This document shows, piece after piece, positions 5,978 to 38,227 of a DNA stretch of 60,775 nt. Within the stretch, counting starts at the first letter, position 1, and every line of letters starts with the position of its first letter. The notes beneath the pieces were generated by a model, which searched no databases, had not been told where the DNA came from, and worked only from the letters and a program-made list of their open reading frames with translations. Both the position numbers and the translations under genes were made by a program. The stretch comes from a virus. The DNA lies in IMG/VR virus record IMGVR_UViG_3300043446_003656, positions 1 to 60,775 of that record; one strand, 5' to 3'.

Positions 5978-5989
5978 CGAATACTCCAG

Positions 5990-6044
5990 AGCCGTCCCTG
6001 AAGTTATACTTTGGCGTTAGGCGTATATAACAGACCAAACGGCT
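5990..6044 (+). ncRNA. Structured RNA downstream of tRNA-Trp
   Basis: A nested fold is visible. The outer stem is AGCCGT/ACGGCT (5990-5995 with 6039-6044), followed by a symmetric 7/7 internal loop. The inner stem is GTTATA/TATAAC (6003-6008 with 6026-6031), closing a 17-nt loop. TTTGG in that loop can pair with CCAAA in the 3' internal loop, a possible pseudoknot. There is no reading frame of note. It belongs to the transcript from 5840 to the terminator at 6081; no known RNA family was recognised. Confidence 0.5.
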
Positions 6045-6059
6045 GGGGTTTCAAAAATA

Positions 6060-6081
6060 AAAATTGCCTTCGGGAATTTTT
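6060..6081 (+). terminator. UUCG-loop hairpin terminator
   Basis: AAAATT-(G)-CC-TTCG-GG-AATTTT followed by T: a hairpin with a TTCG tetraloop and an A/T outer stem ending in a T run. It closes the tRNA-Trp transcript before the Hsp20 gene. Confidence 0.65.
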
Positions 6082-6116
6082 AAAAAACTAACTTGCTTAA
6101 AGAAAAGGAGAATAGT

Positions 6117-6524
6117 ATGACTAATACTTTTGCATGGGATCTTTTTAATGATCCTTTTTTTATTGGCTTTCAGCCAAACATTAATTCATGGACACGTGTA
6201 ACAACACAAAACAATTATCCACCTTACAATGTAATAAAACAAGATGAAGATACATATCTTGTTGAACTTGCTTTGGCGGGATTTAATAAATCTGAAATTA
6301 ATGTAACAGTAGATAATGGCAATTTAATTGTCAAGGGTGAAAAAGAAAATAAAGATGTAGAATTCAAGCATAAAGGAATTGCTACACGTTCTTTTACACG
6401 TTCATTTGCTCTTGGAGAGTATATGGAAGTTACTGGAGCTGAATTTGAAAATGGAATGCTTTCAATTATTATTGAAAGAATTATTCCAGAAGAAAAAAAG
6501 CCAAAATCTATTGACATCAAATAA
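6117..6524 (+). CDS. Hsp20 / alpha-crystallin small heat-shock protein
   Basis: Start at ATG 6117 with AAGGAG nine bases upstream; 135 aa. The alpha-crystallin domain spans about residues 35-130: YNVIKQDEDTYLVELALAGF, INVTVDNGNLIVKGEK, then the GVL-like element NGMLSIIIER and an IDIK tail instead of the usual IxI/V anchor. It is an ATP-independent holdase that keeps unfolded proteins soluble. Cyanophages carry similar genes; here it pairs with GroES (15874-16200) as a phage chaperone set. Confidence 0.92.
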   Translation: MTNTFAWDLFNDPFFIGFQPNINSWTRVTTQNNYPPYNVIKQDEDTYLVELALAGFNKSEINVTVDNGNLIVKGEKENKDVEFKHKGIATRSFTRSFALGEYMEVTGAEFENGMLSIIIERIIPEEKKPKSIDIK

Positions 6525-6541
6525 ATAAAAAGGAGCATATC

Positions 6542-7072
6542 ATCAATATTAGTAAATTAGCAGAAAATATATTTTATTTTGAAAATATCATTGAAGATAT
6601 TGATGATATGCTTTTAAAAATACAATCAATCGAAAAGCGTGAAAATGAATTAAGACAAAATGGCACATATTTTGGCGTTAAGCATTTACTTGAAGGAAAT
6701 CTTTTACAACAAATAGAGAATATTTTTTGGGAAAATTTTATTTTAAGCACAAAAGAAAACAAAAATAATTTTAATTTAATTTTTAATGGACATGTTAGAA
6801 TGTATACCCCAGGTGCTGGGATCAGTCCACATACAGATGAATATTTTTTTGGAAAAAACAAATCAGATATGAAATATCCAGATTATACGGCTTTATTATA
6901 TTTTAACAACAATTATGAAGGTGGAGAACTGGGATTACCAGACTACAACATTTTATTTAAGCCAACACCTGGGAGTTTTTTAATATTTCCTAAAAATACA
7001 ACCCATGAAGTAAAAGACATATTATCTGGAAATAGATATATTGCAATGGCTTTTTTTGTGAAAAAAGATTGA
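6542..7072 (+). CDS. 2OG-Fe(II) oxygenase (P4H type) with a non-canonical start codon
   Basis: The first in-frame ATG is at 6608, but the frame is open upstream and encodes ISKLAENIFYFENIIEDIDD. This is the same opening strand as in the paralogues (LDENVFYIENFL, IDENIFRVENFI). AGGAG at 6531-6535 is placed for initiation at ATC 6542 (ATC 6539 or ATT 6548 are alternatives); no ATG, GTG or TTG is available. Iron ligands are in GISPHTDEYF and TTHEVKD, the 2OG Arg in GNRYIAM, and the core NNNYEGGELGLP. It would be about 176 aa. Family is certain; the start is inferred. Confidence 0.82.
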   Translation: MNISKLAENIFYFENIIEDIDDMLLKIQSIEKRENELRQNGTYFGVKHLLEGNLLQQIENIFWENFILSTKENKNNFNLIFNGHVRMYTPGAGISPHTDEYFFGKNKSDMKYPDYTALLYFNNNYEGGELGLPDYNILFKPTPGSFLIFPKNTTHEVKDILSGNRYIAMAFFVKKD

Positions 7073-7098
7073 CATTAAATATTTAATTAGTATATAAT
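7069..7098 (+). promoter_or_regulatory. Promoter of the 107-nt RNA and tRNA array
   Basis: TTGACA (7069-7074), an 18-nt spacer and TATAAT (7093-7098). The -35 hexamer again contains the upstream gene's TGA stop. Predicted start is 7105-7106, the first base of the 12-bp terminal stem of the RNA that follows. Confidence 0.75.
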
Positions 7099-7105
7099 AT
7101 AATCA

Positions 7106-7212
7106 GTACAGCAGACAACTTAGGATGGTATAGTTACAACACACAAGACCCTTATTGGTGGTTCGTGGTGGAATCTGGGCCATTGTGCAGTTCTAGGGAA
7201 TGTCTGCTGTAC
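7106..7212 (+). ncRNA. Structured 107-nt RNA heading the tRNA array
   Basis: The perfect 12-bp inverted repeat GTACAGCAGACA / TGTCTGCTGTAC (7106-7117 and 7201-7212) closes the element. Inside, CTTAG can pair with CTAGG, and CACAAGACCC with GGGCCATTGTG (one mismatch, one bulge), giving one long interrupted rod. It starts at the predicted transcription start and ends 6 nt before tRNA-Asn. No coding frame and no recognised family. It is the first RNA of the tRNA transcript. Confidence 0.65.
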
Positions 7213-7218
7213 CTTTAT

Positions 7219-7291
7219 TGGCCCATAGCTCAGTTGGTAGAGCGTCGAACTGTTAATTCGAATGTCCCAGGATCGAGACCTGGTGGGCCAG
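7219..7291 (+). tRNA. tRNA-Asn (GTT)
   Basis: Acceptor TGGCCCA/TGGGCCA, D stem CTC/GAG, anticodon stem TCGAA/TTCGA with loop CTGTTAA, T stem CCAGG/CCTGG, discriminator G. All helices are perfect. First of eight tRNAs in a row. Confidence 0.92.
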
Positions 7292-7292
7292 C

Positions 7293-7366
7293 GGAACAAT
7301 AGCCAAGTTGGTTAAGGCCCCGAACTCATAATTCGGTTATCGTAGGTTCAAGTCCTACTTGTTCCA
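7293..7366 (+). tRNA. tRNA-Met (CAT)
   Basis: Acceptor GGAACAA/TTGTTCC and anticodon stem CCGAA/TTCGG with loop CTCATAA. A CAT anticodon could also be a lysidine-modified tRNA-Ile2. However, a separate tRNA-Ile(TAT) follows and the acceptor lacks initiator features, so elongator Met is the simplest call. Confidence 0.88.
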
Positions 7367-7373
7367 CGAATAA

Positions 7374-7448
7374 CGGACGATATCCTAGCCTGGTTTTGGA
7401 AGTACTCTTATAAGGTATGTATCGTTGGTTCAAATCCAACTCGTCCGA
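7374..7448 (+). tRNA. tRNA-Ile (TAT)
   Basis: Acceptor CGGACGA/TCGTCCG is perfect. Anticodon loop CTTATAA sits on stem GTACT/GGTAT, which includes G-T pairs. T stem GTTGG/CCAAC. Anticodon TAT reads AUA directly, useful for an AT-rich phage; most bacteria decode AUA with lysidine-modified CAU. Confidence 0.85.
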
Positions 7449-7451
7449 CTT

Positions 7452-7527
7452 GCCTTGTTAGCTCAGTGGCCAGAGCATCCGCCTTGTAAGCGGAGGGTCA
7501 TCAGTTCGACTCTGATACGAGGCTCCA
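7452..7527 (+). tRNA. tRNA-Thr (TGT), CCA encoded
   Basis: Acceptor GCCTTGT/ACGAGGC, anticodon stem TCCGC/GCGGA with loop CTTGTAA, discriminator T. CCA follows at 7525-7527, so the 3' end appears to be encoded here, unlike in the neighbours. Confidence 0.92.
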
Positions 7528-7528
7528 T

Positions 7529-7601
7529 CTCTCTGTAGCTCAGGGGACAGAGCAGCAGGTTTCTACCCTGCGTGTCGGAGGTTCAAATCCTTCCAGGGAG
7601 G
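7529..7601 (+). tRNA. tRNA-Arg (TCT)
   Basis: Acceptor CTCTCTG/CAGGGAG (one G-T), anticodon stem GCAGG/CCTGC with loop TTTCTAC, discriminator G. It reads AGA/AGG, the dominant Arg codons in this window. Confidence 0.9.
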
Positions 7602-7605
7602 CTCT

Positions 7606-7676
7606 TCTCTTATGGTGTAATGGCAGCACAGAGGCCTTTGAAGCCTTTAGTTTTAGTTCGAGTCTAGATAAGAGAA
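7606..7676 (+). tRNA. tRNA-Gln (TTG)
   Basis: Acceptor TCTCTTA/TAAGAGA, anticodon stem GAGGC/GCCTT (one G-T) with loop CTTTGAA, discriminator A. It reads CAA. Confidence 0.88.
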
Positions 7677-7679
7677 CAG

Positions 7680-7752
7680 GTTCCTATAGCTCAGTTGGTA
7701 GAGCAGCAGACTTTTAATCTGCGGGTCGTTGGTTCGAGACCAACTGGGGACA
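7680..7752 (+). tRNA. tRNA-Lys (TTT)
   Basis: Acceptor GTTCCTA/TGGGGAC (two G-T pairs), D stem CTC/GAG, anticodon stem GCAGA/TCTGC with loop CTTTTAA, discriminator A. It reads AAA. Confidence 0.92.
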
Positions 7753-7753
7753 C

Positions 7754-7835
7754 GCCCGTATGGTGGAATAGGCAGACACAGCAGACTTAAAATTTGCCAT
7801 CGAAAGATATACCAGTTCAAGTCTGGTTACGGGTA
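7754..7835 (+). tRNA. tRNA-Leu (TAA)
   Basis: Acceptor GCCCGTA/TACGGGT, anticodon stem GCAGA/TTTGC with loop CTTAAAA, and a long variable arm as expected for class II tRNA-Leu; discriminator A. It reads TTA. Last of the array, 28 nt before the next gene. Confidence 0.88.
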
Positions 7836-7863
7836 CAATGATATAATTGTAGAAGGAGAAAAG

Positions 7864-8433
7864 ATGATAAAATTTGATGATTTAGAAAAAAATAGATATA
7901 AAATAGAGCAAATAGATGAAAATATCTTTCGGGTTGAAAATTTTATTACTGATCAAGAATGTAAAGATTTAATGCTTGAAATATTAAATAAAAGTGATAA
8001 AGATTGGCTATCTGACTTTGAAGAAAGATATACTGATAAAAATTTTGATTACACAGATCAATGGTATAAAAGAGCTTTAAATTTAACAGATTCTGAATAT
8101 CCGCAAAAATTAAAAAAAAGATTAAAAGATTTAATTAACTCTGATTTAAAAGTAAAATCTTTTTTAACTGTACAAAGACACGAGCCTGGCTCAGGTATTG
8201 AATTACATGTTGATAAAAAACATGATCCAAAATTAGAGTATGCTGCTGTTCTATATTTAAACGATGATTTCAATGGCGGGGAGCTTTATTTTCCTGAAAA
8301 AGATATAGAAATAATTCCTTTAAAAAATAGTTTAATTATATTTAATACTGATATAGAATATTCACACGAAGTAAAAAAAGTTTTGCCTGGCCCAACAAGA
8401 TACGCTATTGCTACTTTTATATGGAAACCTTAA
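7864..8433 (+). CDS. 2OG-Fe(II) oxygenase, prolyl-4-hydroxylase type
   Basis: Start at ATG 7864 after AGAAGGAG; a longer in-frame ATG at 7729 lies inside tRNA genes. 189 aa. Opening strand IDENIFRVENFITDQEC, iron ligands in IELHVDKKHD and YSHEVKK, 2OG Arg in GPTRYAIATF, and core LNDDFNGGELYFPEKD. It is the first protein gene after the tRNA array and overlaps the next gene by 13 bp. Substrate unknown. Confidence 0.9.
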   Translation: MIKFDDLEKNRYKIEQIDENIFRVENFITDQECKDLMLEILNKSDKDWLSDFEERYTDKNFDYTDQWYKRALNLTDSEYPQKLKKRLKDLINSDLKVKSFLTVQRHEPGSGIELHVDKKHDPKLEYAAVLYLNDDFNGGELYFPEKDIEIIPLKNSLIIFNTDIEYSHEVKKVLPGPTRYAIATFIWKP

Positions 8434-8912
8434 ATATATCAATAGCTGGGATGGGAGCAGTTGGGAAAGAATTAATAAAAATACTTCCAGACAATGTTAT
8501 TATAGATAAAATATTGGTAAAAAATTTACATAAGCATGAAAAAACAAAAAATGTTACATTGGATATGAATTTAATTTTAAAATCTGATTTAATCGTTGAT
8601 GTAATGGATGATGTGGACACATCTAGAATATTATTAAAAAAATGTTTTGAGTCAGAAAAAAATATTGTTTTATGTAATAAAGAATTTGTAAAGAACAATA
8701 TTGATTTAATTTGTCACGATGGACTATACAAAAGTAATGTTTATATGCATGGTATAGTATGTAGTAATAATTTAGATGAATTTATCCCAATTGATCACAC
8801 AAACTTAAAAAGTTTTATTGGTAAAGGTTACAAAATTTTTGGGTTTAGGGGCGGGGGGCCTCAAGAAACTGCAAAGTTTATATTAAGCGATATAATGAGA
8901 TCTTTACAATAA
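8421..8912 (+). CDS. Short NAD-binding protein, homoserine-dehydrogenase-like
   Basis: It is 163 aa with an N-terminal Rossmann start ISIAGMGAVGKELIKILP. The ordering of SDLIVDVMDDVDTSRILLKK and EKNIVLCNKEFVKNN follows the nucleotide-binding half of homoserine/aspartate dehydrogenases. The catalytic half (family about 300+ aa) is absent. The C-terminus IFGFRGGGPQETAKFILSDI resembles the family's closing helix. It may be a shortened enzyme with another substrate; the role is unresolved. Confidence 0.6.
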   Translation: METLNISIAGMGAVGKELIKILPDNVIIDKILVKNLHKHEKTKNVTLDMNLILKSDLIVDVMDDVDTSRILLKKCFESEKNIVLCNKEFVKNNIDLICHDGLYKSNVYMHGIVCSNNLDEFIPIDHTNLKSFIGKGYKIFGFRGGGPQETAKFILSDIMRSLQ

Positions 8913-8925
8913 TAGCAATTTGTAG

Positions 8926-8931
8926 TATAAT
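8926..8931 (+). promoter_or_regulatory. Promoter giving a leaderless mRNA
   Basis: TTTACA (8903-8908), 17-nt spacer, TATAAT (8926-8931), then six bases to the ATG at 8938 with no Shine-Dalgarno sequence. Confidence 0.6.
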
Positions 8932-8937
8932 TAATAT

Positions 8938-9126
8938 ATGGAAACTTTAAAAGAACGAGTTTTAACAAAATTAGATAGATGCGATAAATGCGGAGCTGAG
9001 GGATATGTTTTGGTTAAATTAATGTCGGGGAGCTTGGTTTTTTGCGGACATCATTTTATTGAAAATCAAGAAAAACTTTTAAAAATTTCTTATGACATAA
9101 TTGATGAAAGAGAGCATTTACAATAA
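8938..9126 (+). CDS. DUF7455-like zinc-ribbon protein
   Basis: It is 62 aa. RCDKCGAEGYVLVKLMSGSL and FCGHHFIENQEKL form the C-x2-C ... C-x2-H pattern of the DUF7455 family, widespread in actinobacteria and their phages. Zn binding is likely; the molecular role is unknown. Supports the host assignment. Confidence 0.75.
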   Translation: METLKERVLTKLDRCDKCGAEGYVLVKLMSGSLVFCGHHFIENQEKLLKISYDIIDEREHLQ

Positions 9127-9128
9127 AA

Positions 9129-9257
9129 ATGGGATCAAAAAGAAAATTAGAAAAAATTAAAAAAGCATTAGAGATTCGTCAAAAAACACATAAAGGCCCA
9201 GGCGGGAAAGTCCCAGGCTCTATGAATAAGAAAAAAACGGGGTATGCAAAACCATGA
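9129..9257 (+). CDS. Small basic peptide
   Basis: Not recognised. It is 42 aa, starting at ATG 9129 just after the previous stop and overlapping the next ATG (ATGA). Very basic (MGSKRKLEKIKKALEIRQK, GPGGKVPGSMNKKK). Tight packing and frame continuity support it. Confidence 0.6.
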   Translation: MGSKRKLEKIKKALEIRQKTHKGPGGKVPGSMNKKKTGYAKP

Positions 9258-9445
9258 AATTTCCATTAATTAAAACTATATCTTGGTATATTCTTCATTT
9301 CATAATGGTGTCTGGGATAGCAACTTGGATTTCTGGAGATCATAAAATTGGTATTACTATTGCTTCTGCAGAATTAGTTTTTGAAACAGCATTATATTTT
9401 GGGCACGAAACAATCTGGGAAAAGGTTAGAAAATCATGGAATTAA
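9254..9445 (+). CDS. DUF2061-like membrane protein
   Basis: It is 63 aa. KTISWYILHFIMVSGIATWI is the first membrane helix, and SAELVFETALYFGHETIWEK carries the E ... YxxHExxW signature of DUF2061 small membrane proteins. Function unknown in the family. Overlaps the Dps-like gene start by 10 bp. Confidence 0.75.
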   Translation: MKFPLIKTISWYILHFIMVSGIATWISGDHKIGITIASAELVFETALYFGHETIWEKVRKSWN

Positions 9446-9879
9446 TACAAGCATTAAAAATTTTACAAGCAGATGCCTTTAAAATATATTTACAGGCTCA
9501 CGGATACCATTGGAATGTAGAAGGCATGTTGTTTCCAGAAATGCATGAAAAATGGCTTGAAGTATACGAAGATATTTATTCATCAATTGATAACATTTCA
9601 GAAATGTTGAGAAAATTAGATGAACGTGCTCCTATGACTATTGAAGAAATTCTTTCAAATTCTTCAATTTCTGATATCTATAACGGAGCAAACGTAAAAG
9701 ATCAAATTGAATCATTTTTAAATTCAAACGACATTATCATAAACAGTATTAAAGCTGCTCATATATTAGCGGATAAAGTTGGAGAAATTGGAATTGCAAG
9801 CGACCTTGAAATTAGAGATTCTATGCATAAAAAATGGGGATGGCAATTAAAATCAACAATCAAGACATCTTTGGTATGA
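9436..9879 (+). CDS. Dps-like ferritin
   Basis: It is 147 aa, a four-helix ferritin-like protein. AHGYHWNVEGMLFPEMHEKW and EVYEDIYSSIDNISE give the Dps ferroxidase pattern (H-W-N, H-E, then D...E at the subunit interface). Dps proteins oxidise Fe(II) with peroxide and store iron, protecting DNA. With AhpC, AhpD and thioredoxin this forms a phage oxidative-stress set, and the iron chemistry is relevant to the Fe(II) oxygenases. It overlaps the next gene (ATGA). Confidence 0.85.
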   Translation: MELIQALKILQADAFKIYLQAHGYHWNVEGMLFPEMHEKWLEVYEDIYSSIDNISEMLRKLDERAPMTIEEILSNSSISDIYNGANVKDQIESFLNSNDIIINSIKAAHILADKVGEIGIASDLEIRDSMHKKWGWQLKSTIKTSLV

Positions 9880-10439
9880 TAGAAAAAATACAACAGTTAT
9901 TGCTTGAAAATAAAGTGGTAATTTTAGACGGTGCTTTTAAAGATACCCCAAGGTGGGATAGTTTTATATATTTAATTGATTTTTTATCTGCTGAAGATTA
10001 CTCTGGTACAGAAATAAGAAAAAGAAAACTGGGATTAAATAATGATTTATATTTAAGAGTTGCTGATGCTGTTGATATCGAGTCACAAAACAGCACTAAT
10101 AATTTAATGCCAGAGTTAAATAAAGTCGTTTCTTATTTTAACACTTTGTTTAAAGAAAAAACAAAATATTCTGAGTGCTATTTAAATCTTACTAAACATT
10201 GTGAATTTAAAGAGCCACATAATGATCAATGGACTGCAGTATCATGGAATTGTCAAGGAATTGTGGAGTGGAGAATTTATAAAAACGAAAACAATGAAGA
10301 ATATGATACGTTTATTTTAAACCCTGGAGACGTTATAATAGTTCCAAAATACATTAGGCATAGCGTAATCCCACTAACTCCAAGAGCCAGTATTTCACTA
10401 GCCTATAATATGGATAACAATATTGAATCTTACTCTTGA
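9876..10439 (+). CDS. Cupin-type 2OG-Fe(II) oxygenase-like protein
   Basis: Start at ATG 9876 overlaps the Dps stop; an in-frame ATG at 9834 is too deep in that gene. 187 aa. The metal site is suggested by FKEPHNDQWTA (H-N-D) and KYIRHSVIP, with TPRASISLAYN supplying the 2OG Arg; LNPGDVIIVP is the typical strand before the distal His. It is more divergent than the P4H-type set and resembles JmjC/cupin oxygenases. Its TGA stop lies within the -35 of the next promoter. Confidence 0.7.
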   Translation: MIEKIQQLLLENKVVILDGAFKDTPRWDSFIYLIDFLSAEDYSGTEIRKRKLGLNNDLYLRVADAVDIESQNSTNNLMPELNKVVSYFNTLFKEKTKYSECYLNLTKHCEFKEPHNDQWTAVSWNCQGIVEWRIYKNENNEEYDTFILNPGDVIIVPKYIRHSVIPLTPRASISLAYNMDNNIESYS

Positions 10440-10465
10440 CAAAGCATATTTTATAATAGTATAAT
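10436..10465 (+). promoter_or_regulatory. Promoter for the secreted subtilase
   Basis: TTGACA (10436-10441), 18-nt spacer, TATAAT (10460-10465). The -35 contains the oxygenase stop codon. AAAGGA precedes the ATG at 10496. Confidence 0.75.
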
Positions 10466-10495
10466 ATACATATAACTACTAACAAAGGAAAAAAA

Positions 10496-11407
10496 ATGAA
10501 GAAAATAGCTGCAATTTTAGCAGTACTTTTTGCTGTAACAATTCAACCAGTTCATGCTGAAACTCCAAAAACACTAGTAATTATTGACACTGGTGTTGAC
10601 ATGAGTCACCCTGCTTTAAATAATATTGTATATGAAGTGTGTGTTGCAGGATACAAATCTTGTCCTAACGGACAAAATTTTATGGAAGGTAAAGGTGCAG
10701 CAAATGTAACTTCGTCTATGTATTCAAATGAAGCTTGGTCGCATGGAACTAAAGTTGCTTCACTTGCATCAGGCATCCCAGTAATTGAGATCAGATGTGC
10801 TTCTTTAATTGGTACAAATGGCTACCTTGGATGCAATGCAAATACCTTGACAACAGCATTAAATTGGGTCATTGATAACAAAAATAAATTTAATATTGTT
10901 GCAGTTGCATCACCACTCGGCTCTTACAGCACGACATGTGATTTAAAAGCTGCATATGTTGCCCCAATAAACAAATTAAATTCATTAGGTGTTGCAATTA
11001 TGTTTCCAACGGGAAACGATTTTAAATATGTTTCTATTGACAATCCTGCTTGTGTTCCAGGCGTTATTGCAGTAAGTGCGACAGAAATTAAAATTGTTTT
11101 AGGTAAAACTCAACCAAAACAACTTGCTTTGTATGCAAACTATTCTGATCGTGTTGATTTTGCAGATGATGGCGGAACACTAACTAATCCAATGACTGTT
11201 GCAATCCCAGGTGGAAGCATGGGCACAGCGTGGGGAACATCATTATCTGTAGTTAATTTTGCAACAAAATGGGTAAAAGTTTTAAATGCCAAAAATCTAT
11301 CTTATAATGATGAGTATAATTTAATTAAAAATACTGCAGATTCATATACCAATATTATGGTAAAGAAAAACGTACTTGCAATTAATATTGCAAAGGCGTT
11401 ACAATAA
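10496..11407 (+). CDS. Secreted subtilisin-like serine protease
   Basis: It is 303 aa with a signal peptide (MKKIAAILAVLFAVTIQPVHA). The S8 triad is visible: Asp in VIIDTGVDMSHP, His in EAWSHGTKVASLAS, and Ser in GTAWGTSLSVVNF, where the usual GTSMA is GTSLS. VAVASPLGSYS and MFPTGNDF fit the substrate cleft and oxyanion Asn. Six Cys may form disulfides outside the cell. No propeptide is obvious. Possible roles are cleavage of host surface proteins or virion processing; neither is shown. Confidence 0.88.
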   Translation: MKKIAAILAVLFAVTIQPVHAETPKTLVIIDTGVDMSHPALNNIVYEVCVAGYKSCPNGQNFMEGKGAANVTSSMYSNEAWSHGTKVASLASGIPVIEIRCASLIGTNGYLGCNANTLTTALNWVIDNKNKFNIVAVASPLGSYSTTCDLKAAYVAPINKLNSLGVAIMFPTGNDFKYVSIDNPACVPGVIAVSATEIKIVLGKTQPKQLALYANYSDRVDFADDGGTLTNPMTVAIPGGSMGTAWGTSLSVVNFATKWVKVLNAKNLSYNDEYNLIKNTADSYTNIMVKKNVLAINIAKALQ

Positions 11408-11411
11408 TACC

Positions 11412-11912
11412 ATGCAAACATTTTTACCATACGCAACTAAACGAGACAGCCTAGACGCTCTAGATAACAAACGACTTAACAAGCAAATATTAGAATGCTA
11501 TCAAATTCTTAATATTTTGACTGGCAATTCTAAATCTAATGCTTGGCGTAATCACCCCGCAGTTTTAATGTGGGAAGGTGCTGAGTCAGAATTGTATCGC
11601 TATGCAATGACAGCAGTCGCACTAGCAGAAATGCGTGGAATTAAAACTGATAAAAATCGAGCTAACTTAAATGCTTTATCTCGTTCACGCAAGTCTCTAG
11701 CATGGGAAGACAATACTCCAATTTGGGCTTCCAGTCCTTCTGTGATTAAACGTGTAAATGCTACACATAAAGCAAATCTATATCGCAAAGATCCAATTTT
11801 CTATGCAGAGTTTGCATCTTCAGTAAATGATCCGTATAATAAACCTTGTTGCGATAAATGTCAATATTTTTGGCCAACACATAAGGAGAAAAATGGATTC
11901 ATTCATGGGTAA
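11412..11912 (+). CDS. Pyr_excise-type protein (pyrimidine-dimer DNA glycosylase family)
   Basis: Start at ATG 11412, four bases after the previous stop; 166 aa. MQTFLPYATKRDSLDALDNK then RLNKQILECYQIL and NAWRNHPAVLMWEG match the phage family related to T4 endonuclease V (PF03013), in which LDNKRLxKQ and NHPAVxMW are conserved. A C-terminal CCDKCQYFW adds a possible Zn site. Repair of UV damage is the family activity; many phage members are untested. Confidence 0.75.
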   Translation: MQTFLPYATKRDSLDALDNKRLNKQILECYQILNILTGNSKSNAWRNHPAVLMWEGAESELYRYAMTAVALAEMRGIKTDKNRANLNALSRSRKSLAWEDNTPIWASSPSVIKRVNATHKANLYRKDPIFYAEFASSVNDPYNKPCCDKCQYFWPTHKEKNGFIHG

Positions 11913-12207
11913 GAGCGATGACGAAATGATAGGATATCTTGAAGATCAAGGAGCTATTGTTTGGGACGGGGTAGCAGATAACGGAGAAGCAGTTTTTAAA
12001 TTTAATTTGGATAAATTAAAAGAAATTTTGCCAGAAATGTATGAAGAAATTATGGCAGATATTGATAATGATTTAATGAAATTGTATGACCAAGGATTTG
12101 TGGAAATTGAATATGATGAAGATTTAAATGCTTTGTTCAGACCTACTCAAAAAGGTGCTGAATGGGCAAAAAAAATGGGATTCCCAGAGTTTCCATTCCC
12201 AAATTAA
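11893..12207 (+). CDS. Acidic hypothetical protein
   Basis: Not recognised. Start at ATG 11893 with AAGGAG; 104 aa. Acidic and mostly helical (DDEMIGYLEDQGAIVWDG, FNLDKLKEILPEMYEEIM), ending FPEFPFPN. A wHTH-like layout is possible but not demonstrated. Confidence 0.55.
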   Translation: MDSFMGKSDDEMIGYLEDQGAIVWDGVADNGEAVFKFNLDKLKEILPEMYEEIMADIDNDLMKLYDQGFVEIEYDEDLNALFRPTQKGAEWAKKMGFPEFPFPN

Positions 12208-12250
12208 GAGTTTATAGGATATAATAGAACTAATCACACGGAGGTGAAAT

Positions 12251-12469
12251 ATGGACAATAATCAACAAACTCCATCTAAACAGACAGGTAAGCCAGATTT
12301 GTCGGCACAAACTTCTCCAGGTAACGGAGCATCAGCTACACTAACTAACGTTGACGCAGCAAGCAAAATGGGAGTTCCTAGTCCATTGACAGGAGCAGAT
12401 GTTTCTATGACTACAGCTCAAAAAGCTGGGGGTAAAATTGTGACAACCGAAGCTGGATCAAAAAACTAA
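12251..12469 (+). CDS. Low-complexity hydrophilic protein
   Basis: Not recognised. It is 72 aa, rich in Gln, Thr, Ser, Gly and Ala, with no Cys or hydrophobic core. GGAGGTG precedes ATG. A TATAAT at 12220-12225 may start a short transcript with the next gene. It is likely disordered. Confidence 0.55.
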   Translation: MDNNQQTPSKQTGKPDLSAQTSPGNGASATLTNVDAASKMGVPSPLTGADVSMTTAQKAGGKIVTTEAGSKN

Positions 12470-12490
12470 AAAGAAACAGGCGGTGAAAAA

Positions 12491-12895
12491 ATGACAGAAA
12501 CAACAAATAACGAGCAGGATTTAACAAAATCTTTTCCAGATGGCGTTAAGGGACCAATAATTAATCAAGAAATTTCTCCAACAGATGCAACTTCAGCAGT
12601 TGCTCCAACTTCTGAGGAGATGTCAGAAGCAAATGAAGAATCTATTGCTAAGGCTGACAAGTGCCCTACATGCGGTCAATCTATGCCAATTAAAAAAGCA
12701 GAAGATGCAGAAGAAATGGAAAAATCAGAAACTTGTGCAGATTGCGGTAACAACCCTTGCACATGTGAAAAAAAATCTGCAGAAGTAGAATCTAAAGAAG
12801 AAGAAGCAAAAGAAACTCCTGAAGATGAAAATAAAGAAATGAAGAAGTCTCTATGGGATGGATCATTTTCACCAAATATCAAAAGAGGACTATAA
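12491..12895 (+). CDS. Acidic double-Cys-knuckle protein with C-terminal KSLWDG motif
   Basis: It is 134 aa. Two Zn-knuckle-like pairs are visible (KCPTCGQSM and CADCGNNPCTC) in a Glu/Lys-rich, largely disordered chain. The C-terminus MKKSLWDGSFSPN matches MTKSIWDGVFIPN in the 3758-4399 protein. The shared tail suggests a common docking or processing signal, perhaps in virion assembly. A terminator follows. Confidence 0.6.
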   Translation: MTETTNNEQDLTKSFPDGVKGPIINQEISPTDATSAVAPTSEEMSEANEESIAKADKCPTCGQSMPIKKAEDAEEMEKSETCADCGNNPCTCEKKSAEVESKEEEAKETPEDENKEMKKSLWDGSFSPNIKRGL

Positions 12896-12919
12896 TTCTA
12901 TTTTTTAAAAAGATTTACA

Positions 12920-12944
12920 AAACAGCGGGCAACCCCCGCTGTTT
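12920..12944 (+). terminator. Rho-independent terminator
   Basis: Perfect 10-bp stem AAACAGCGGG / CCCGCTGTTT with loop CAACC, followed by TATTTG. It ends the 12251-12895 unit. Confidence 0.85.
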
Positions 12945-12961
12945 TATTTGAAAGGAAAAAA

Positions 12962-13336
12962 ATGAGAGTAGGAATATTAGGTAGTAAAGACTGGGAAAAT
13001 TATTCAGAAGTTATTAGATCCTTGACTGTTTTTATACAAGAAGCTCATGAATTAGGCCATGACGAATTGATTTTAGTGCACACTGGAAGTAAAGGTGCAG
13101 AAAATATGATTACTGAATATGTTGGAAAAACAAAAAAATTTTTGCGTGAAAAAGGCTTTAAAATTAAAGAAGAAGTAGCAGCCAGAAATTCTCAAATTAT
13201 AAAAGATATGTCTGTCATTGATTCAGATTTACAGTACGCTCTCCTATTTAGCACGGGAGATAAAAGAACAATTTCTTTTAAAAAAATATTAAAAGAATAT
13301 GGGATTCCATTTAGGATTATAGAGCTTGACAAATGA
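12962..13336 (+). CDS. DUF2493/SLOG-like Rossmann protein
   Basis: It is 124 aa. MRVGILGSKDWENYSEV, then DELILVHTGS-KGAENMI, follows the YspA/DUF2493 pattern in which a GSRxW-type strand is followed by a HGGxxGAD-like loop. SLOG-family members bind nucleotides or related ligands. AAAGGAAAAA precedes ATG. Confidence 0.65.
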   Translation: MRVGILGSKDWENYSEVIRSLTVFIQEAHELGHDELILVHTGSKGAENMITEYVGKTKKFLREKGFKIKEEVAARNSQIIKDMSVIDSDLQYALLFSTGDKRTISFKKILKEYGIPFRIIELDK

Positions 13337-16791: not shown

Positions 16792-16943
16792 TGAAAGATG
16801 TAATAATGTCTTTATTTACAGGAGGAATATGTGGTGTTGTATTTGCAATTGCAAAATTACCAGTGCCAGCTCCGCCTGTTTTATCAGGATTAATGGGGAT
16901 CGTTGGTTTATGGATAGGGTATAAACTTGTCCAAATATATTAA
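16791..16943 (+). CDS. XapX-like small membrane protein (DUF1427)
   Basis: It is 50 aa, starting at ATG 16791 on the previous stop. Two hydrophobic helices around AIAKLPVPAPPVLSGLMGIV, which carries the P-x-PAPP turn of XapX domain proteins. Function unknown in the family. Confidence 0.72.
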   Translation: MKDVIMSLFTGGICGVVFAIAKLPVPAPPVLSGLMGIVGLWIGYKLVQIY

Positions 16944-16980
16944 TTATAGATATATGGTAAGAAAGAGAGAGCAATACGAA

Positions 16981-17553
16981 ATGAAAACTGTAGGTTATAA
17001 ATTAAAGAAGTTTACTGTAGTGGGTGTTAAACCTGGATTTACAGCATCTTCAGATGATGCTTTTGAGGAAATTACGGATAAATCATTTCCTGGAAAGTGG
17101 AAAGTGATTATGTATTATCCAAAGGATTTTACATTTGTTTGTCCAACAGAAATCGTTGCATATGATAAATTATCTAAAGATTTTGAAGATAGAGATGCAG
17201 TTTTAATGTGCGGTTCTGTAGATAATGAATTTTCAAAACTTGCTTGGAGACAACATCATGAAGATCTTGGAAAAACCAATTCTTGGATGTTTGCGGATCA
17301 ACGCAAAGAAATTTATGATGATGAATACGAAGTTATTGACGGAGGCCTAGCTGAACAACTTGGAATTATTAATAATCAAGGCGTTACATGGAGAGCAACA
17401 TTTATTGTAGATCCTGAAAATGTAATTCAGCATATCACTGTTAATAATTTAGATGTTGGTCGTAATGCTGATGAAGCATTGCGTGTACTTGATGCATTGC
17501 AAACTGGAGAACTTTGTGCTTGCAATCGTCCAATTGGTGGAGCAACATTGTGA
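16981..17553 (+). CDS. ahpC: Peroxiredoxin, AhpC type
   Basis: Start at ATG 16981; 190 aa, full length. The peroxidatic Cys is in DFTFVCPTEIVAYD and the resolving Cys in GELCACNRPIGGATL; WRATFIVDPENVIQH is conserved. It reduces hydroperoxides. In actinobacteria it is recycled by AhpD, encoded two genes downstream and transcriptionally coupled through a GTGA overlap. Confidence 0.94.
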   Translation: MKTVGYKLKKFTVVGVKPGFTASSDDAFEEITDKSFPGKWKVIMYYPKDFTFVCPTEIVAYDKLSKDFEDRDAVLMCGSVDNEFSKLAWRQHHEDLGKTNSWMFADQRKEIYDDEYEVIDGGLAEQLGIINNQGVTWRATFIVDPENVIQHITVNNLDVGRNADEALRVLDALQTGELCACNRPIGGATL

Positions 17554-17726
17554 CATGGATTATATTGAACGGGGAAAAAGGTCACTCATGTGGCCTTCCC
17601 TGGTCAGTAGATGAACCAGGAATGGGGGCTATCCATTTACAAAAAAGACATGCGGGATCTGTGTGGGAATGTAAATGTGGTAAGCAGTATGAATGGTCAG
17701 GCAAAAAATGGAAAGATGCAATATGA
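17550..17726 (+). CDS. Small zinc-binding protein between ahpC and ahpD
   Basis: Start is GTG 17550 overlapping the ahpC stop (GTGA), with GGTGGAG upstream; 58 aa. Cys/His pattern SCGLPW ... HLQKRHAG ... ECKCGKQYEW suggests one Zn site. Not a named family. Its place inside the ahpC-ahpD unit suggests co-expression only. Confidence 0.6.
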   Translation: MTWIILNGEKGHSCGLPWSVDEPGMGAIHLQKRHAGSVWECKCGKQYEWSGKKWKDAI

Positions 17727-18235
17727 GTTGGGTAGATAGTTTAAAAGAATCTTTACCAGAATATGCTAAAGATATTAAATTAAATTTAGATGCTGTTATC
17801 AATAGAAGCACAGTAGATGCTGAATTAGCAACACATTTGGCTCTTGCTTCCGCTTTCGCTACTGGAAATGGCAAATTAATTGCTTTCATTGCAGCAGGAT
17901 CAAACAATGAAATTGAAAAAAATGCTGCATTAACTGCAGGGTCTATAATGGCTCAAAATAATATATGGTATCCGTATTTAGAAATGGCAAATGATCCAAA
18001 TCTAAAAGGTTTGCCAGCACAGCTTAGAATGAATGCTATTGCTACTCATGGCGGGACTTCAAAAGCAAATTTTGAAGCTTATTGTCTGGCTTCCTCTATT
18101 GTAGGTAAATGTCATTTTTGTGTAAAAGCACATTATGAAACATTAAAAGAAGAAGAGTATAGTGTAGAACAACTTCGAGATATTGGAAGAATAGCAGCGG
18201 TAATTAATTCTATTTCAAAGATTTTATCTGCATGA
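17723..18235 (+). CDS. ahpD: Alkyl hydroperoxidase AhpD
   Basis: Start at ATG 17723 overlaps the upstream stop; 170 aa, close to the 177 aa of mycobacterial AhpD. The CxxC-H site is VGKCHFCVKAHYETL. KESLPEYAKDIKLNLDAV and LRMNAIATHGG match the conserved N-terminal and middle helices. AhpD links AhpC to dihydrolipoamide, so the phage carries both halves of the actinobacterial peroxide system. Confidence 0.93.
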   Translation: MSWVDSLKESLPEYAKDIKLNLDAVINRSTVDAELATHLALASAFATGNGKLIAFIAAGSNNEIEKNAALTAGSIMAQNNIWYPYLEMANDPNLKGLPAQLRMNAIATHGGTSKANFEAYCLASSIVGKCHFCVKAHYETLKEEEYSVEQLRDIGRIAAVINSISKILSA

Positions 18236-21275: not shown

Positions 21276-21554
21276 ATGTCCCATAAATACCTAGAATACC
21301 TAAGAGAGCATAATAGAGCTAAGGCATCTATATGTTCTTATTGCAAAAATAGGAGCGTAGACATCATAGCTGAAAAACATCAGATAAAATATGTATGCTC
21401 AGATCATTACATCTCCCCCACCGATTGTATATTGGATGTATCTGTCCCTGGAGTCTTACATTATACTTATCCACAGGGTAAGAAACCTGGACTTATGGAT
21501 CCAAATATAGGTGGATATATACCTAGAAATAAAGTGGAGCAAAGTGGAGTATAG
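21276..21554 (+). CDS. Zinc-ribbon protein, last gene of the rightward arm
   Basis: It is 92 aa. SICSYCKNRSVDIIAEKHQI and YVCSDHYISPTDC give a C-x2-C ... C-x2-H ribbon like the DUF7455 type, then a loose Pro/Gly tail. Its 3' end is built into the first two 10-bp iterons of the putative origin. Confidence 0.6.
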   Translation: MSHKYLEYLREHNRAKASICSYCKNRSVDIIAEKHQIKYVCSDHYISPTDCILDVSVPGVLHYTYPQGKKPGLMDPNIGGYIPRNKVEQSGV

Positions 21555-21963
21555 TGGAGAATATACAGTAGTTATCCACATATGTGCATAGGTTATCCAC
21601 AGATTTTATATACATAATATGGAACCATATATATGATGGCGTTCGTAATATACCACATATGCAAATTATGTGTCAAATCGTAATATATCTCAATATGTGG
21701 ACAACTTGTGGATATATGACCACATAGCATAAATTTTATATGTTGTCAAGCATTTATATGGTCAAATTGGTCATTATTTTGGTCATATAAAATTTATATG
21801 CATTTTTTACACAAAATGTACGATTAATTCGTAATATGTGTTCATAAATGCTTATTTATTCTATGTTTCTTTTATTTTATATATATTTTTCTATGGTATT
21901 CTAGGGAGCTTTCGTAATGGTATTTTTGGGAGGATCCAGGGGAAAATCCCGCCCCATCGTAAT
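21533..21963. other. Candidate replication origin (iterons, DnaA boxes, TCGTAAT repeats)
   Basis: Non-coding from 21555 to 22078. Three exact 10-bp units AGTGGAGNNN occur at 21533, 21543 and 21553. DnaA boxes: TTATCCACA at 21572-21580 and 21593-21601, TTGTCCACA on the minus strand at 21696-21704, and ATATCCACA on the minus strand at 21707-21715. TCGTAAT occurs five times (21643, 21678, 21829, 21912, 21957). The DNA between is very AT-rich, with GGTCA repeated three times near 21760-21795. It lies where converging gene blocks meet. Origin function is inferred; no initiator gene is visible. Confidence 0.55.
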
Positions 21964-21999
21964 CCCTATTTTGAAATCTGACCTGATCAAGAAAAAAGA

Positions 22000-22033
22000 A
22001 AGACCCCCGTGGTCCCGAATCCACGAGGGTCTT
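22000..22033 (-). terminator. Terminator of the leftward block
   Basis: AAGACCCCCGTGG / CCACGAGGGTCTT (one mismatch) with an 8-nt loop. On the minus strand it is followed by TCTTTTTTC, a good U tail. It may also work weakly rightward. Confidence 0.75.
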
Positions 22034-22078: not shown

Positions 22079-22444
22079 TTATACCACTGCATCTTTGTTT
22101 TTGTCAAGTCGCAATCCATGATAGTCTACAAATTCATCAAAGGAGTGTATCCCAGATTCATCTTCAATATAGTTCTTATCTAGCCAGATAGTAATTGCTG
22201 GGTGGTCTCCAGCCCCGTTGTCTGGACCAGCCCAGAGGCCGTATCCAGTCTCTTCGTTCCAATCAGGTCCGATTAGATTAGAGACAATAATGCGGGCACA
22301 ATATGATTCATCATCCCATCTTGGGCGGGCTTTTTCAAGAGCGTATGCTAAAGCACCATATCTATCTCCACCACCCCAATGACTATATAAACTAATTTGA
22401 TTACCATCAGTTTGAGCCAATGTATATACGATTCTGTCACCCAT
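22079..22444 (-). CDS. Hypothetical phage protein
   Basis: Not assigned to a named family. It is 121 aa, aromatic- and acid-rich: MGDRIVYTLAQTDGNQISLY, HWGGGDRYGALAYALEKAR, GLWAGPDNGAGDHPAITIWL. Last gene of the leftward block; its start abuts the stop of the next gene upstream. Confidence 0.6.
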   Translation of the reverse strand: MGDRIVYTLAQTDGNQISLYSHWGGGDRYGALAYALEKARPRWDDESYCARIIVSNLIGPDWNEETGYGLWAGPDNGAGDHPAITIWLDKNYIEDESGIHSFDEFVDYHGLRLDKNKDAVV

Positions 22445-26607: not shown

Positions 26608-27639
26608 TTACGCTGTTAGCGCAAGAACTTTTTTCACAATAGAATTTTTTTCTGCTGTGATAACAGGGTCAAAGCCACTAGCGGAATAAATAAGCGATTC
26701 GCCATTTGCTTTTCGTGCTGTGCGATAATAATCTAAACGCTCAGTTAGGGCATTTACTACACCCCACGCTGTGCCTTTGATATTAGCGTTAGTTTCTGAA
26801 TTATGATAAAGGTCATCAAGCAGAACAACTTTGTTTTCCCACTTAGTAAGTGAACCTTTCTTATCATGCTCAGGCTTTGGATATAGCGTGTTGATAATCT
26901 CAGAGAATTTCTTATCTGTGACTTCACGCTGGAATAACAATTCTGCTTGCTTGCTAAATTCATCAAAGTAAGCAACAGATAGATTCAAGGCTTCACGAGC
27001 CTGTGCAATTTTGCCATCAACTGTCTGCGTATGGCGAATCTTGAAAGATTGCTTTGCAGATTTCATAGCAAAGTTAAGAGTATTTTGGCAACGAACACGA
27101 ACAGGCGTGATTGCTGCTTGAACAGCAACAGAACCATCATGGCTAGTATAAACAACTAGATATAGATTGGTTTTGTCGTTAGCACCCTTTGGGTCAAGAA
27201 CGAGAGTAGATGGAACATTCCATGTGCCAAATACAACACGACCATTTTTGAAAGACCCTGCTGAATCAACAGTGACATCAGGATTTGAATCGTGGAGATT
27301 TTCTGCGAAAGCAAATAAATCTTCATTTTGAACTTCTTTGTAGCGTGAACCTACAACAGAAAGAACATCTGTGTTGCCCGCTTCAAACGGATTGTCACGA
27401 ACAACAAGGAAAGATTCGGTTAAGAAATTGTGATTTGGTGCTAACTCAGAAACAGGCTCTAAGCGAACATTCCAATTCGAGAGATGAGCAGAATCCATAA
27501 TTTGTTTAATTGTAGGTTGCTCCTCATCTGTATTCCAAACATGATTAGCAGCAGAGTGCCAAGCAGGATTTGAGCGGGAATCAACAAGGGTGAAAGTCAC
27601 AGATTTATCTGCGATTTCTTTTGCGTGTGCAAGTGTCAT
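26608..27639 (-). CDS. DUF932 phage/plasmid-like protein
   Basis: It is 343 aa. FLVVRDNPFEAGNTDVLSVV, GSRYKEVQNEDLFAFAENL, VFGTWNVPSTL and VRVRCQNTLNFAMKSAKQSF are the conserved order of DUF932 (TIGR03299) proteins, widespread in phages and mobile elements. The biochemical function is not settled; a role in DNA replication or recombination has been suggested for relatives. Largest leftward gene, with its own promoter. Confidence 0.85.
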   Translation of the reverse strand: MTLAHAKEIADKSVTFTLVDSRSNPAWHSAANHVWNTDEEQPTIKQIMDSAHLSNWNVRLEPVSELAPNHNFLTESFLVVRDNPFEAGNTDVLSVVGSRYKEVQNEDLFAFAENLHDSNPDVTVDSAGSFKNGRVVFGTWNVPSTLVLDPKGANDKTNLYLVVYTSHDGSVAVQAAITPVRVRCQNTLNFAMKSAKQSFKIRHTQTVDGKIAQAREALNLSVAYFDEFSKQAELLFQREVTDKKFSEIINTLYPKPEHDKKGSLTKWENKVVLLDDLYHNSETNANIKGTAWGVVNALTERLDYYRTARKANGESLIYSASGFDPVITAEKNSIVKKVLALTA

Positions 27640-37942: not shown

Positions 37943-38227
37943 CTATTTGCCACGCTTTTGTACTTCTGCGTTGCGCAGCATTGTAACTGCGTCTATATAT
38001 GAAAGTTTATATGTTGGTTCCAGTTTCGGCTCATTTTTCGGCTCACTAATTGTTTCACGTGGAACACCATAATATAACATTAAACCAAGTGTAATAATCA
38101 TTGGGACATATATTGGAGAAATTGAAGCAATAAACCAAAGAACTGTCAAGATACTAAATTGTTTAATTCCAAATCTTGCCTTGGATGGTTTGCTTCCATA
38201 TGACAATTCATGCATAGGATGCGACAT
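37943..38227 (-). CDS. Two-helix membrane protein
   Basis: Start at ATG 38227 (MSHPMHELSYGSK) is preferred because the longer ORF to 38257 overlaps the HNH gene more; 94 aa. QFSILTVLWFIASISPIYVP and MIITLGLMLYYGVP are membrane helices. The C-terminus has a Pro/Glu repeat (SEPKNEPKLEPTYK). Function unknown. Confidence 0.55.
   Translation of the reverse strand: MSHPMHELSYGSKPSKARFGIKQFSILTVLWFIASISPIYVPMIITLGLMLYYGVPRETISEPKNEPKLEPTYKLSYIDAVTMLRNAEVQKRGK

Follow-up and report, generated by a model that had tools for sequence, protein, structure and literature searches.

In P1 oriR and in iteron plasmids such as pSC101 and RK2, iterons are accompanied by TTATCCACA boxes and adjacent AT-rich DNA, and DnaA aids a dedicated initiator. 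Coliphage 186, a small temperate phage of the P2 type, has been reported to need host DnaA. For prophage maintenance, extrachromosomal mycobacterial prophages have origins that use RepA or RNA; the paper that describes them mentions the P1 RepA iterons and makes no mention of DnaA (PMC7157519). We analyzed a 60.8-kb virus record (hereafter the window), which is probably a genome fragment and for which an earlier note had proposed a candidate replication origin with host-type DnaA boxes.

Like P1 oriR, pSC101 and RK2, the locus has direct-repeat iterons, TTATCCACA boxes and an adjoining AT-rich stretch. It differs from these origins in its repeat of just 10 bp and in that no RepA-type gene was identified beside the iterons, the screen for Rep initiators being confined to the adjacent 92-aa ORF, which had no Pfam or PHROG match. 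A further difference is that the related BE-cluster members of Stanwilliamsviridae are presumed virulent (PMC10690885) and have their own polymerase, helicase and primase. With bacterial oriC the locus shares several helically spaced DnaA boxes beside AT-rich DNA, but it is without dnaA/dnaN neighbours, has few boxes and carries additional iterons and TCGTAAT words. The exact pattern of iterons and boxes was found in none of the sequences of the genome_contigs set. By analogy with coliphage 186, a need for host DnaA may be proposed for the window phage, although the latter belongs with a family of phages of more than 100 kb with their own replisome. As for the mycobacterial prophage origins (PMC7157519), this would be an actinophage origin outside the virion genes.

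Layout of the locus and clustering of its motifs

Boxes, iterons and TCGTAAT words are packed into about 500 bp (~21460–21970) between two converging operons, a rightward one and a leftward one whose end is at 22079 (Table 1). For 21533–21963, the motif inventory of the earlier note was borne out, i.e., two exact TTATCCACA boxes, the inverted TTGTCCACA, the near match ATATCCACA, three iterons and five TCGTAAT words. The exact box at 21467 has a counterpart at the corresponding place in the relative L031. Within the AT-rich stretch we found a 14-bp perfect inverted repeat (21729–21742/21784–21797), and 21791–21890, which adjoins the boxes, has 17% G+C and is among the lowest 0.33% of 100-bp segments. 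The earlier note called the locus the only long AT-rich non-coding stretch, but it is neither the only long non-coding one nor the most AT-rich place: a crude ORF call gave others of 500–650 bp, and 39.7–39.8 kb is more AT-rich. The iterons do overlap the gene end, as had been described, but this is incidental because they lie past the gene in several relatives. The GC-rich hairpin is a probable terminator between the converging operons; relatives also have hairpins at the corresponding place.

Table 1. Features of the candidate origin and its surroundings in the window.
Feature	Position	Strand	Remarks
Last ORF of rightward operon, 92 aa	21276..21554	+	3' end overlaps first iterons
DnaA box TTATCCACA	21467..21475	+	exact; within 3' end of ORF 21276-21554; 66 bp outside 21533-21963
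Three AGTGGAG iterons TAAAGTGGAG CAAAGTGGAG TATAGTGGAG	21530..21559	+	exact 10-bp period; starts 21533, 21543, 21553
DnaA box TTATCCACA	21572..21580	+	exact; 105 bp after first box
DnaA box TTATCCACA	21593..21601	+	exact; 21 bp after preceding box, i.e., two helical turns
TCGTAAT word 1	21643..21649	+	
TCGTAAT word 2	21678..21684	+	
DnaA box TTGTCCACA	21696..21704	-	
Near-match box ATATCCACA	21707..21715	-	11 bp from TTGTCCACA
AT-rich stretch, candidate unwinding region	21721..21890		holds GGTCA words
TCGTAAT word 3	21829..21835	+	
TCGTAAT word 4	21912..21918	+	
TCGTAAT word 5	21957..21963	+	
GC-rich hairpin AAGACCCCCGTGG/CCACGAGGGTCTT	22000..22033		between converging operons
DUF932 gene, leftward operon	26608..27639	-	synteny marker for finding the locus in relatives

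Exact TTATCCACA occurs three times in the 60.8 kb, each time at the locus; shuffled windows held 0.8 copies on average and never three within 431 bp. Five TCGTAAT words in 431 bp compare with a maximum of three over 200 shuffles, and the phased triple iteron appeared in none of 200. In a weighted 300-bp box score, with weights of our own choice, the locus reached 12.0, with 2.0 at the next place and no more than 5.0 in any of 30 dinucleotide shuffles. Identical weights picked out the corresponding locus as the top DnaA-box cluster of the genome, exceeding shuffles, in nine of ten phages scanned. TCGTAAT was rejected as an origin-only word, further copies being present outside the locus.

Spacings between boxes (105, 21 and 11 bp) agree with the helical repeat. 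Across viral contigs in general, TTATCCACA pairs showed 10.5-bp phasing (R 0.70, n at least 171, a sample that may include near-copies) with R 0.05 for the reversed control, a comparison that uses spacing alone, pair counts not being comparable between the two. Among the matches listed for viral contigs L207–L326, pairs within 39 bp were mostly 11–13, 20–22 or about 32 bp apart. This phasing supports the view that helically spaced TTATCCACA pairs in viruses would be bound by DnaA, and viruses may often carry DnaA-box arrays.

GC skew had been named as a check on the origin. A sign change is present, but it runs the way that a terminus or converging transcription would produce and not the way that an origin would. 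Cumulative skew has a local maximum at the locus, i.e., a terminus-like turn, and skew was higher left than right of the locus in most comparisons, including third codon positions of same-strand genes, in samples that were small and confounded by gene class. We hence rejected GC skew as origin evidence; it is also a weak origin test here because the operons converge and many phages are without replication skew. Both flanking operons run into the locus, and forks leaving it would therefore meet transcription head-on.

Eight CRP/GlxR-type palindromes TGTGAN6TCACA (24974, 26366, 27764, 27854, 29020, 31764, 32087 and 32998) all lie in the leftward operon region at 25–33 kb, several of them upstream of TATAAT-like −10 words, and a reversed control gave none. 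Freshwater relatives have two to eight each, Streptomyces phages none or one. Their placement suggests early promoters that may be under a host CRP-type regulator.

Affiliation and conservation of the locus

Stanwilliamsviridae are Streptomyces phages of about 130 kb. The window DUF932 protein is about 49% identical to that of Stanwilliamsviridae. Terminase is absent from the window; that of the relative G003 is 60–65% identical to the Stanwilliamsviridae terminase. We regard the window phage as a probable uncultured freshwater relative of this family, with a likely actinobacterial host. Relatives include records of 102–112 kb; two of these, G002 and G003, end in short direct repeats, a feature of circular contigs. 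Megablast of 18–26 kb against phages gave no match. At 16927–18235 of the window, an AhpC-type peroxiredoxin gene is followed by a 180-aa ORF that resembles AhpD by eye. The AhpC matches kept were mostly from Betaproteobacteria (59–63% identity); Betaproteobacteria were rejected as host, as the terminase of the relative points to actinophages.

G003 encodes a DNA_pol3_alpha-type polymerase, a DnaB_C helicase, a DnaG-like primase and RecA. Weak IstB matches were discarded as a separate helicase loader, since they fall within the DnaB-type helicase gene. Neither a Bac_DnaA nor a Bac_DnaA_C domain was found in G003 or the other records searched. The window itself is without a DnaB-type helicase gene, and its replisome is therefore deduced from relatives.

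Relatives were found via the DUF932 protein. In nine other freshwater relatives a box cluster lies 4–5.6 kb downstream of the DUF932 gene, with two to four exact boxes at the locus (L005, L007, L009, L011, L012, L013, L014, L015 and L031) that vary in number, order, spacing and strand. L004 and L040 derive from a single contig almost identical to the window. In G003 (112 kb) and G004 (107 kb), all three exact TTATCCACA of each genome are at the locus. Ten further relatives (L006, L010, L016, L020, L021, L023, L025, L026, L027 and L028) have the AT-rich locus with three or four TCGTAAT words and zero exact boxes there, and show GTGGAG-type iterons where the captured stretch includes that part; L029 and L033 are also without boxes and have fewer TCGTAAT words. 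About half of the relatives carry DnaA boxes at the locus. Almost every member of the freshwater clade has iterons and TCGTAAT words, phased GTGGAG-type repeats being present at the locus in 18 of the 20 relatives tabulated.

On a midpoint-rooted DUF932 tree, the box label needs 3 changes compared with 8.3 for shuffled labels; it therefore tracks descent, with few gains or losses. Because ten freshwater relatives have iterons and/or TCGTAAT words without an exact box, the boxes are, as judged from sequence comparison, a lineage-specific addition that is dispensable for the locus, the constant parts being the iterons and TCGTAAT words. Box conservation, which the earlier note had proposed as a check, was thus found in ten freshwater loci (window included) and seven Streptomyces phages and not in the ten freshwater loci that keep the rest. 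The dependence on host DnaA that had been suggested does not hold in general; use of host DnaA is likely in the lineage of the window phage.

A ParB-site-like word, TGTTTCACGTGGAACA, lies at 38051–38066 of the window. Exact GTTTCACGTGAAAC occurs in L020 (16143), L021 (15784), L025 (3956), L027 (4405) and L031 (78), and falls inside the origin-like locus in L020 and L021. Both words resemble the parS consensus. In L036, ten copies of TGTGGATAA stand in a longer CCTGTGGATAACTAGGTTAACA-like repeat at 5980–13142, mostly intergenic and ahead of rightward ORFs, which would be a promoter-like use of a DnaA-box-like word.

All seven Streptomyces phages of the Stanwilliamsviridae that we checked (Samisti12, Gilson, Phredrick, Wakanda, Annadreamy, Yaboi and Comrade) have TTATCCACA clusters at 118.7–123 kb, at the corresponding end. 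In each of the six with annotation examined, the cluster sits in a gap of 0.9–1.8 kb without annotated genes; in some sister phages, small hypothetical genes have been annotated there. Aligned across eight Samistivirus phages, 89% of the first box, 56% of the second and 33% of the third were invariant, compared with 33% of the whole gap. The Streptomyces phages checked showed no GTGGAG iterons. Gilson (NC_048742) has TCGTAAA words on the + strand at 97106, 99425, 102411, 104573, 120416 and 120461, the final two in the origin gap and each after similar GGCAAATTTT-type text; they are possibly a family-specific intergenic signal. MiniFlayer and MulchRoom, satellites that depend on such helpers and are without replication genes, have no box cluster and hence gave no support as an independent origin test. 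No origin description for this phage family was found in the searchable literature, outside which most subscription papers lie.

Alternative functions of the locus

The locus is a real, conserved, largely non-coding, origin-like place across the phage family. We favour, with rather more confidence than doubt, that ~21460–21970 would be an iteron-type phage replication origin recruiting host DnaA in some lineages. The proposal of a candidate origin with host-type DnaA boxes thus stands as a candidate, and the boxes recur in freshwater relatives and Streptomyces phages.

We consider it unlikely that the locus is instead a regulatory or terminator region, with boxes, TCGTAAT words and iterons as regulator sites or stop signals. 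Such a role would suit its position between converging operons with a hairpin at the end, the presence of TCGTAA words elsewhere, and the distant relative L036, where TGTGGATAAC is found in the promoter-like motif repeated ten times, mostly in intergenic DNA. However, helically spaced box arrays are atypical of single operators, and Gilson and Wakanda (Loccivirinae) have the cluster though their flanking genes do not converge.

Ranked after it, and likewise improbable, is a DnaA sink: the array would titrate host DnaA, as datA does in E. coli, and silence host initiation early in infection, with the phage origin elsewhere. The boxes vary among relatives while the rest of the locus is constant, as expected for an accessory function, and no phage DnaA was found. 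On the other hand, three to five boxes per genome are few for a sink if the phage does not reach a high copy number, they adjoin iterons and AT-rich DNA, and the analysis, which was no systematic origin search, brought up no better candidate.

A packaging boundary, with the array placed where the long terminal repeat ends and the terminase cuts, is highly unlikely. In Samisti12 (NC_042012; boxes 122951–122995) 49 bp separate the end of the last box from the right terminal repeat (10,666 bp) that follows it, and in Yaboi (NC_048730; boxes 118726–118758) 60 bp (repeat of 12,432 bp), but the distance to the repeat is 6.3 kb in Gilson and 5.5 kb in Wakanda, so that box position does not follow the cut. 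Chance clustering, for which the AT-rich region and the short words might speak, is practically negligible, as shuffles never matched the observed cluster and diverged phages have it at the corresponding place.

Initiation at the candidate origin

For an iteron-type origin, the mechanism would most likely be modelled on P1 oriR and similar plasmid origins. An initiator protein, phage- or host-encoded, would bind the 10-bp GTGGAG iterons and may bind the TCGTAAT words as well. In the box-bearing lineage, host DnaA would bind the helically spaced TTATCCACA array, help to open the adjacent AT-rich stretch and help to load the phage's own DnaB-type helicase, whereupon the phage DnaG-type primase and DnaE-type polymerase would take over. 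DnaA binding, unwinding and initiation at this place, as well as the existence of an iteron-binding protein, are what we infer.

A wider idea, possible but rather doubtful, is that one conserved phage origin swaps host-recognition signals among close relatives, i.e., DnaA boxes in one lineage and the exact parS-like GTTTCACGTGAAAC (L020 and L021) or CRP-type palindromes in others, with its own iterons and TCGTAAT words constant. If true, the swapped signals would plug the same locus into different host systems.

A phage that is large, virulent and equipped with its own replisome is commonly taken to start replication without the host initiator. With a family-wide origin candidate that has DnaA boxes in cultured Streptomyces phages, dependence on host DnaA becomes directly testable, and the natural box-plus and box-minus relatives offer a ready-made comparison.
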